From Zeus faber (Eukaryota; Chordata; Actinopteri; Zeiformes; Zeidae), in contig OY482846.1 in assembly GCA_960531495.1 (NCBI GenBank), forward strand, positions 45,366,796 to 45,430,795: a stretch of DNA of 64,000 bases, read 5' to 3'. This document shows, piece by piece, positions 31,201 to 34,200 of this stretch. How positions within the stretch are numbered: the first letter of the stretch is position 1; each line of letters opens with the position of its first letter. The position numbers and the translations under genes are program-made. Under the pieces are notes generated by a model, which was not told the origin of the DNA, made no database searches, and saw only the letters and a list, made by a program, of their open reading frames with translations.

Positions 31201-34200
31201 TACATTATATGGATAGATGGTTCCCGTGTCTACTCATCTTTTATTAAAATGGTGTAGTTTGTTTGGCAAAATAAGTAACCTCCTGATAATCTTGCCCTTA
31301 AAATAAAGGACTGTCTTTGTTGAAGAAACACAAAATGATGATATTCCTTATTTTATCGATAGTTTAAGTGACGTTTTTCGTTTGACAAAAATCTTAACAA
31401 TGCAGGGGCCCCGGTGTCTCCCTCCTATTGGCTGTCGCCCGGCCGCTGGACGCCGCTCATTCTCACCGCCGGTCGTCACCCCGCCCCCCTGCAGCTGGAT
31501 GAAGCCGGGCTCCGTCTGCCCCCTCGCCCGGCGGTGTGACCGTGCCATAAGGGATTTAATGAGCTCAGCTTGAAATTCTTTTGTTGTGAACACATCGTAC
31601 CCTATTTAAAAAAGAAAAGAAAACAGGAGGGTACCGCCAACAAACGAGTGGTAGTTCTGCTCCTTCAAAATAAAGCCTCTACACCTCTAAGTGAAAATCA
31701 TAACAATAACGATGTAGTGTCACATCACACCGCTGCATTATTTATGAGCCTACAAGAGCCGCCTTGCTAATGAACATGGCTTTATATTTCAGCTATGTAC
31801 ACGGATCCCCAGTGATTATTAAAAAAAAAATAAAAATAAAAAAAAAGGTTGGGGAGCCCTGCTCTAAGGCACATTTTCCCCCTCTAACGCAAACCTTCAT
31901 CTTGGTCACTGGAGGTGCTGGGTTAAGTACCGAATATAAATCGATCGACCAAGACGATCTTGCGGATTACCGCTTTGACAGCGCGGTTCCTCCTCCTCCT
32001 CCTCCTCCTCTCGGGGAGCCACGGTGAATCGGGCCAGGGCCGCGCTCCGCCGTGCGCCGTCCACCAGATGGCGGCCAACCCGCCGCCTCCTCCTCCTCCT
32101 CCTCCTCCTCCGCCTCCTTTCTCTTGTCACCCATTCTCTCTCGTATCGAGAGGTTTCCAAAAATTGCGCCGTGGCCCGGGCACGGGGGGCCCGGGGGGCG
32201 CGTATGTGTTGATCTGGTGTTAGCAGAGGAGCCCTCACTAGACGTTCATCGAGCCGCTCACGCCACCCCATGACAAGGACAGTCAGGCGCGTCGCGGCGC
32301 TGCGTCCTACACGTAATGGACGCGTCGTCTTCTCGGTCACGGTTGCGCAGAGACTTGATTTTTTTTAAATGTTTTTTTTTTTTTTTTTCGTATTCAAACA
32401 CCTGCAGCGGTGACGGCGGGGTTTGTGTGCGGCGCTCCCCGCGCACCGTCCCGGGGCTTTTCCGTCCGGTAACGCGGTAACAAAGTAAAACGTGTGTGTT
32501 TTGGGCAGATTACCCATGAGCCTTTGCGACGCATTAGCGCATGCGCTGCCGCTCCGCCGAGCTCAAATGACTCGCGCGTTACTTTGTGTTCAAGATTGAG
32601 GATTTTTTATTTGTCACATACGTATAAATACTTTAATACATATATGCAGTGGAATGTAATAATGCTGAGGTGTCTGTAAAAGCTTGATGCCTGTTTGTGT
32701 CTTTCAGGTGGTTGTTGTCTGTAAAAGCTTGATGCCTGTTTGTGTCTTTCAGGTGGTTGTTGTCTGTAAAAGCTTGATGCCTGTTTGTGTCTTTCTGGTG
32801 GTTGTTGTCTGTAAAAGCTTGATGCCTGTTTGTGTCTTTCTGGTGGTTGTTGTCTGTAAAAGCTTGATGCCTGTTTGTGCCTTTCAGGTGGTTGTTGTCT
32901 GTAAAAGCTTGATGCCTGTTTGTGTCTTTCAGGTGGTTGTTGTCTGTAAAAGCTTGATGCCTGTTTGTGTCTTTCTGGTGGTTGTTGTCTGTAAAAGCTT
33001 GATGCCTGTTTGTGTCTTTCTGGTGGTTGTTGTCTGTAAAAGCTTGATGCCTGCTTGTGTCTTTCAGGTGGTTGTTGTCTGTAAAAGCTTGATGCCTGTT
33101 TGTGTCTTTCTGGTTGTCTGTAAAAGCTTGATGCCTGTTTGTGTTTTTCTGGTTGTCTGTAAAAGCTTGATGCCTGTTTGTGTCTTTCTGGTGGTTGTTG
33201 TCTGTAAAAGCTTGATGCCTGTTTGTGTCTTTCTGGTGGTTGTTGTCTGTAAAAGCTTGATGCCTGCTTGTGTCTTTCAGGTGGTTGTTGTCTGTAAAAG
33301 CTTGATGCCTGTTTGTGTCTTTCTGGTTGTCTGTAAAAGCTTGATGCCTGTTTGTGTTTTTCTGGTTGTCTGTAAAAGCTTGATGCCTGTTTGTGTCTTT
33401 CAGGTGGTTTTGTTTGGGATGGATATTCTGTCAGCTCTTGTAACAAGACTGCAGGAGAGATTCAGAACTCAGGTTGGAACAGGTAAGTTTTAAAGTATTA
33501 TTTAGTGTGTGTGTGTGTGTGTGTGTGTGTGTGTGTGTGTGTGTGTGTGTGTGTGTGTGTGTGTGTGTGTGTGTGTGTGTGTGTGTGTGTGTGTTATATA
33601 CGTGTGTGTGTGTGTGTGTGTGTGTGTTTATATGTATGTATAGATGACTGTGTGTGTGTGTGTGTGTGTGTGTGTGTGTGTACTTACGAGTGTTTTGGTG
33701 AGTTCAGAGTCGATCAACACATTATATCATTACATTATAACATCTGTGACGTAACATTAAACATCCAAACGAAAGTTCTGTGGTGGCTTTTTTATTTATT
33801 TTTTGCCTGGGTTAGTTTTTACTGTTGTGCCTTTCTTATGATAAGCTGTTATGCTTAATTTTCTTACCCCGAGTGACTCGTTGCAGCTCGTCCACAGAAT
33901 CTAGAGTACATAGAGTGTTGTCTGTATGAATGAATATGTGTATTGTTTGGTTGTGGTGAGGGCCTGCTTCAAAATGAAATTGATAAAAAGGTACAAGCTT
34001 CAATTAATATGATTTTGAATTTCAAAATGAAATGGTAAATTAATTAAATCAACGTCTACCGGTGCGGTTAGGAAAAACTGTTTCTCATAGTTCGATCGCT
34101 CAATTGTTTGATTTATTATATTAGTATGTCAGTATGTCATTTCTAAAGTCTTTGATGAACATTTAGGATAACTTTATTGAGGGAGAAAAAGTAATAAATA

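Follow-up and report, generated by a model that had tools for sequence, protein, structure and literature searches.

An array of clasp1 3′ splice-site copies adjoins the second coding exon of the gene in Zeus faber

Splice sites located inside tandem repeats are already known from several human genes. In the available portion of one report (PMC5954066), an intron 18 VNTR of ABCA7 is highly variable in people. Retention of one unit of this array, which yields a distinct isoform, occurs at ∼2% in the tissues tested independent of array length, and skipping of the next exon (exon 19) increases as the array becomes longer. In the UBC and VCX3A genes, AGGT sequences in tandem arrays are dual-specific, and the UBC arrays are spliced as introns or as exons, as described in the accessible part of a second study (PMC10809524). 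That account counts 792 human introns within tandem repeats, including 77 whose length is a multiple of the repeat unit, and 45 of these 77 have a length divisible by three. The ABCA7 donor VNTR and the dual-specific AGGT arrays typified by UBC are the nearest known systems to the locus described here. A search of the open-licence literature found no array of complete acceptors that ends in a constitutive one. Reportedly, judging by its title, a 2007 paper by Zhuo and others describes human introns that arose from tandem arrays and are alternatively spliced.

The window analyzed is the entire 64,000-nucleotide stretch of the 803-Mb Zeus faber genome between positions 45,366,796 and 45,430,795 of contig C2, and the clasp1 gene lies in its right half. 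When exons 1 to 5 are joined, residues 1–182 align without gaps to the TOG1 domain of human CLASP1 (6mq5; E 7.7e-93), including across the junction between exons 1 and 2, which establishes these as TOG1 coding exons. CLASP1 alignment and donor scoring place the first coding exon (65 codons) at 28009–28203 on the + strand with the donor AAG/GTGAGC, where the slash marks the splice junction. The second coding exon (79 nt) is located at 33404–33482 (+) with the donor CAG/GTAAGT. By sequence coordinates, the intervening intron 1 (28204–33403, +) is 5200 nt long and contains a U4atac gene as well as the array. Intron 2 (33483–34499) is 1017 nt. Exon numbers refer to coding exons throughout. Thus, although an initial sequence-only reading of this locus correctly recognized a conserved CLASP1 TOG1 exon next to the array, its "exon 2" is more precisely the second coding exon. 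Fish carry two clasp1 copies. The second coding exon of the present copy encodes VVLFGMDILSALVTRLQERFRTQVGT, which matches the related proteins P0004, P0012, and P0016, named CLASP 1-A in their source.

A minisatellite occupies positions 32671–33413 (+), as determined by Tandem Repeats Finder (TRF; period 45, 17.1 copies, 94% matches), unit parsing, and genome searches. Parsing yields 17 units of 45 or 39 nt in this one assembly, with 16 spacings composed of 12 of 45 nt and four of 39 nt. The shorter units differ from the longer ones by a 6-nt deletion. As the sequence-only reading had described, each unit copies the 3′ end of intron 1, including the polypyrimidine tract, and contains the six bases with which exon 2 begins (GTGGTT); all but ∼6–8 nt of the unit is intronic. 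CAG is retained in six of the 16 upstream units and is changed to CTG in the other 10, again as had been read, whereas unit 17 is the real acceptor. Within the window, the unit core has 17 matches compared to none in 100 shuffled sequences. A 20-nt version of the core occurs exactly 17 times in the 803-Mb genome, always at the clasp1 locus. Allowing two mismatches adds three matches elsewhere in the genome, and a reversed control pattern has one. These counts far exceed chance and show the array to be genuine.

Seven unit types can be distinguished, in the order AABBCABBDEFBBDEFG, with the last type truncated by the exon. The block BBDEF is duplicated such that 250 nt are identical at a spacing of 213 nt, which indicates that part of the array has grown recently or has been recently homogenized. 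Tandem arrays are prone to be assembled with the wrong copy number, and we considered the chance that the array is an assembly or sequencing artefact. However, the ordered higher-order pattern of seven unit types within a 53-Mb contig and the presence of the unit core at a single locus make this explanation very improbable.

The array shares with the ABCA7 VNTR the arrangement in which the edge of a minisatellite includes the constitutive splice site of its host gene and the units copy this site. Specifically, the last clasp1 unit contains the constitutive site of the adjoining exon, which is an acceptor rather than a donor. Unlike the 25-bp ABCA7 unit, which carries a donor and whose retention as a single unit breaks the frame according to the portion of that report available, the clasp1 units (45 or 39 bp) carry an acceptor plus a branch-like motif and keep the frame. 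Length variation and its effects have been measured in humans for ABCA7, whereas the clasp1 array is known from one genome sequence. Likewise, clasp1 resembles the UBC and VCX3A arrays, whose units are joined at AG/GT, in that its unit lengths are multiples of three; AG/GT itself is present in seven of the 17 clasp1 units. In UBC, each unit encodes a monomer of a functional protein, and the accessible account shows use of the same site as donor and acceptor. The clasp1 units, in contrast, are intronic, are known as sequence features, and lack the AG in 10 of 16 upstream copies.

A further parallel is intron gain by AGGT tandem duplication, in which, as outlined in the available part of a review (PMC3443670), the duplicated segment makes new candidate donors and acceptors. 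The clasp1 array does the same, but what is duplicated is the 3′ end of an intron already in place rather than an exonic segment that becomes a new one, and the protein can be kept without intron gain. The array can be viewed as an acceptor-side equivalent of the donor VNTR in ABCA7 and as a candidate intermediate in the rebuilding of gene structure by tandem repeats.

The real acceptor spans 33383–33403 (+), as defined by the CLASP1-aligned exon boundary and the matrix score. It comprises the A of TTGAT at position 33383, a pyrimidine tract, and a CAG that ends at 33403. Six decoy acceptors, numbered from the left and located by the last base of CAG, are present on the same strand. From −37 to +6, decoys 1 (32707; 696 nt upstream of the real site), 2 (32752; 651 nt), and 4 (32932; 471 nt) are identical to the real acceptor. 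Decoys 3 (32887; 516 nt), 5 (33067; 336 nt), and 6 (33280; 123 nt) each differ from it by a single T to C change in the pyrimidine tract. The coordinates and distances of the sequence-only reading agree with the parsed units. TTGAT, which we take to be a branch-like motif, is present in all 17 units, and in each of the seven units with CAG its A precedes the final G of the AG by 20 nt. The decoys that retain CAG therefore resemble complete 3′ splice sites.

Using an approximate matrix of base frequencies, the real acceptor scores 10.04 and the decoys score 9.65–10.04. The real site ranks 20th among the 1963 AG dinucleotides between 28230 and 63900 by this measure. Because the decoy scores are nearly those of the real site, local score cannot separate them, and context must. 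The array thus represents a natural cis-competition experiment, in which acceptors that are nearly identical from the branch-like motif to +6 differ mainly in position. RNA from Zeus faber would show which kind of proximity governs the choice of site, that to the upstream donor or that to the donor of the same exon. Tandem repeats are apt to produce RT-PCR artefacts, a caution cited in PMC2812944.

In all 10 CTG units (32777–33378), the first AG past the branch-like A is that of AAAAG, located 34 or 40 nt downstream and followed by CTTG. The last of these AGs (33378) is 25 nt upstream of the real AG and is out of frame.

The explanation we favor, to which we assign somewhat better than an even chance, is that a near-neutral minisatellite has grown from the acceptor, with the last acceptor preferred and the decoys leaking at a low level. 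Repeated tandem duplication of the last ∼37 intron bases together with the first bases of coding exon 2 would have produced a lineage-specific minisatellite, in which the real 3′ splice site is preceded by six intact copies and by 10 that have lost the AG. Any unit could then bind U2AF and U2 snRNP. Exon definition would favor the copy closest to the donor of exon 2, which is strong (79 nt away compared to 202–775 nt for the decoys), such that most mRNA would be joined at 33404. Occasional use of a decoy would add 41–232 in-frame residues. Alternatively, joining to a decoy could be undone, because the recreated donor AAG/GTGGTT might allow the spliceosome to step to a later acceptor. Neither outcome disturbs the frame, and so the array would be close to neutral and free to change length, and unit number may accordingly vary among individuals.

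Published data on competing acceptors bear on this proposal. As presented in the available portion of PMC9225289, the upstream of two alternative 3′ sites is preferred overall, and strongly so under intron definition. When both flanking introns are long, the upstream preference among sites of equal strength is significantly reduced. The interpretation given there is that exon definition favors the sites that are closest across the exon. The 5.2-kb upstream intron of clasp1, its short exon 2, and the strong exon 2 donor (12.62, the best of four scored with the approximate matrix, compared to 11.05 for exon 1 and 5.33 for exon 4) thus would favor 33404. Substantial decoy use is also compatible with that account, and because the upstream preference is described as reduced, with no mention of a reversal, a decoy could win. 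Intron 2, at only 1017 nt, also counts against the proposal. The low and length-independent rate of one-unit retention in ABCA7 leads us to expect low-level decoy use here.

RNA folding predictions are mixed. The last 251 nt of the intron give a value of −34.1 compared to a mean of −54.0 (sd 3.8, n = 50) for mononucleotide shuffles, so that the array alone folds less than expected. When exon 2 is added (202 nt), the value is −51.8 compared to a mean of −46.4 (sd 4.6, n = 100), a change explained by predicted pairing of the last unit with the exon. For the final 20 bases of the intron, folded in 301-nt contexts, the mean unpaired probability is 0.22 at the real site and 0.43–0.54 at the six decoys. 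The real site is less open in these contexts owing to this pairing between the last unit and exon 2 (33367–33482). This difference vanishes when the whole array and exon 2 are folded together (0.48 for the real site and 0.42–0.55 for the decoys). A role for RNA structure in exposing the real site is not supported, since this site is the least open of the seven in the 301-nt contexts. This result is also somewhat against the reading that we favor.

The reading frame was assessed for each decoy. The sequence-only reading had claimed that every distance from decoy to real acceptor is a multiple of three and that no stop codon intervenes, and both parsing and translation bear this out. The exon 2 frame is open backwards as far as a TGA at 32666, and the six extended products are computed to proceed through exons 2–4 into exon 5 with no stops. 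Decoy use would insert 41, 112, 157, 172, 217, or 232 residues between TOG1 residues 65 and 66, and the exon would be 202–775 nt rather than 79 nt, with the 202-nt exon predicted for decoy 6. The added peptide is an in-frame repeat, as had been proposed, but does not consist purely of VVVVCKSLMPVCVFQ, because the CTG units end in L and the 39-nt units encode VVCKSLMPVCVFL.

These characteristics raise the possibility, put forward in the sequence-only reading, of a length-polymorphic splice switch, in which functional clasp1 isoforms carry in-frame repeat insertions in TOG1 and their share is set by unit number. The six stop-free, in-frame decoys with scores near that of the real site, and their greater predicted openness in local folds, are consistent with such a switch. 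A precedent for an isoform derived from a variable minisatellite is the ABCA7 array, but the extent of one-unit retention in that gene is unchanged by array length in the portion of the report available. Moreover, the marked hydrophobicity of the insert speaks against its making a useful variant of TOG1. The 41-residue insert has a mean hydropathy of 2.06 compared to −0.21 for the 182 TOG1 residues, and the best 19-residue windows are 2.6 and 1.5, respectively.

Preservation of the frame is also less telling than it appears. The frame remains open in a fraction of 0.55 of dinucleotide shuffles of the unit (0.53 with the acceptor ends fixed), and the chance that two unit lengths are both multiples of three is 1/9. 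The joint chance of ∼6% is suggestive at most, and constitutes weak evidence of selection for an in-frame design. As indicated by the proportion of multiples of three among human introns that span an integral number of tandem units (PMC10809524, in the part available), frame-keeping is common in such repeats. Given these considerations and the protein searches reported below, we regard the splice switch as improbable. Similar doubt applies to the broader proposal that, in this vertebrate cytoskeleton gene, seven near-identical competing 3′ splice sites yield in-frame TOG1 variants of graded length, remove the end of the intron stepwise, or do both, in a pattern set by a unit number that varies among individuals; we judge this to be rather unlikely as well.

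AG/GT, in the form CAGGT, is present in seven of the 17 units including the real one, whereas the remaining 10 have CTGGT. Joining exon 1 to a decoy creates the sequence AAG/GTGGTT, as occurs at recursive splice sites, or ratchet points, where an acceptor is used and a donor is then recreated on joining the upstream exon. As a sequence feature, the recreated donor scores 5.69 with the approximate matrix, which corresponds to the 96.7th percentile among the 2703 GT dinucleotides between 28210 and 63990. This score is near that of the exon 4 donor, and therefore a mis-joined intermediate could be respliced to a later acceptor.

Splicing might be stepwise, with CAG/GTGGTT acting as a dual-specific site: Exon 1 would land on a decoy, and the rest of the array would be removed in one or more further steps that restore the normal mRNA. 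The smallest remainder would be an intron of 123 nt, and the dual-specific UBC arrays provide a precedent in the accessible account (PMC10809524). However, the recreated donor is weak compared to that of exon 1. Unlike the known ratchet points, which are found in long introns, the seven AG/GT sequences of clasp1 are contained within 0.7 kb of an intron of just 5.2 kb. Recursive splicing is known mostly from much longer introns. We therefore consider this route unlikely.

Another scenario is that the array acts as a sink or silencer. Its many branch and pyrimidine sites, together with UGU-rich ones, would sequester U2AF, PTB, or CELF proteins and lower the inclusion of exon 2. Skipping of this exon is computed to break the frame at once, with the protein terminating four residues past residue 65, and so the length of the array would tune clasp1 dosage. 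TGT occurs 12.8 times per 100 nt in the array compared to 4.2 in the remainder of introns 1 and 2, and the values for TCTTTC are 1.9 and 0.15. In addition, a (GT)n run of ∼177 nt (33505–33681, +; TRF) begins 22 nt past the exon 2 donor, and skipping of ABCA7 exon 19 rises with array length in the available portion of PMC5954066. However, enrichment of these motifs is expected when one acceptor is repeated 17 times. The exon 2 donor is strong, and the protein-binding motifs are putative. A sink or silencer function is thus rather improbable.

The CTG change is confined to unit types B, E, and F. Selection on these changes was considered but found no support, since by arithmetic the chance that four substitution types hit the AG is ∼0.18 and block copying would spread a single one. 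The pattern suggests that AG loss in 10 units reflects a few events that were spread by block duplication. Nevertheless, selection is another way to account for both the open frame and the AG losses.

A second copy of clasp1, named clasp1b here and located by way of its neighboring U4atac gene, lies on contig C18. Its exon 2 encodes VALLGLDLLSALVTRLQDRFRAHVGT and is preceded by a single acceptor, CCCGGTCTCCCCCAG/GTGGCGCTG. No array was revealed by TRF in the first 2 kb of L012, the locus that contains this exon, and clasp1b exon 1 was not found in the ∼10 kb upstream of exon 2.

Related proteins were also examined at the corresponding junction. Both exons could be placed by script in 20 of 92 proteins, a set that includes P0001, and 18 of these 20 join exon 1 directly to exon 2. 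Most of these 18 are from the other fish copy or from other vertebrates, with P0004 being the sole fish protein that carries VVLLG, and the direct joins are weak evidence concerning the array itself. P0012 and P0017 have eight and 24 extra residues at this junction, respectively, and both insertions are unlike the unit. P0017 is a predicted clasp1 protein of Muraenolepis orangiensis, and its 24 extra residues are in frame and end in PAQ; this insertion may be a gene-model error.

P0001, a read-through open reading frame from another genome, contains RPCDGVCVFQ/VVLLGMDILS, in which the VCVFQ at the intron end is common to the unit. The repeat was not found in the 105 residues that precede exon 2 in this protein. 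P0040 and P0091 are read-throughs of the same gene copy, but their seven residues preceding exon 2 are too few to be informative. A search for the repeat peptide among proteins of ∼148–472 residues recovered only P0001, owing to the shared VCVFQ. Among proteins of ∼492–1566 residues, none was found in the best 8000 candidates by shared words, in a collection from which the proteins of this species may be absent.

A full-length gene for U4atac, the minor-spliceosome snRNA, is located antisense in intron 1 (32153–32283, −; Rfam RF00618, 87.5 bits). Upstream of this gene are two sequences that are presumably promoter elements, a PSE-like element (ACCGTGACCGAGAAGA) near −60 and a Staf-like box near −240. 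A genome search yielded two U4atac genes. The second (L011, 9862–9988, −) is antisense beside clasp1b, with 459 bp separating its 5′ end from coding exon 2, and would thus be expected to reside in clasp1b intron 1. The two RNAs are clearly different in sequence. RNU4ATAC overlaps CLASP1 in man, as noted in the accessible portion of PMC13400782. This overlap, together with the antisense placement of U4atac before exon 2 in both fish copies, indicates that nesting of U4atac in clasp1 is probably older than the teleost gene duplication.

We also considered U12-type splicing linked to U4atac, given that CTTGAT presumably resembles a U12 branch site. This possibility was rejected because intron 1 starts with GTGAGC.

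Only a short stretch separates the U4atac promoter from exon 2, and the array probably grew there. Most of what remains of this stretch is occupied by a dispersed repeat of ∼80 bp (32587–32667, +), identified by genome similarity matches, that ends within a few bases of the array start. This repeat accounts for 40 of the 43 among the matches listed, with 85%–95% identity over up to 68 bases. A transposon origin for the array unit is unsupported, since the unit core is confined to the clasp1 locus and the adjoining 80-bp repeat is a separate dispersed element. On the other side of exon 2 lies the (GT)n run, and thus the exon may be flanked by two repeat arrays that are both variable in length.

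Upstream of clasp1, exon-like stretches were recognized by eye at 256–5770 (+) and 18936–22078 (−). The former looks like a ClC chloride channel and the latter like a PDE9-like phosphodiesterase. Between them, at 12379–14900 (+), open reading frames inspected by eye include gag- and pol-like fragments that are interrupted by stop codons and have the appearance of a Ty3-type retrotransposon.
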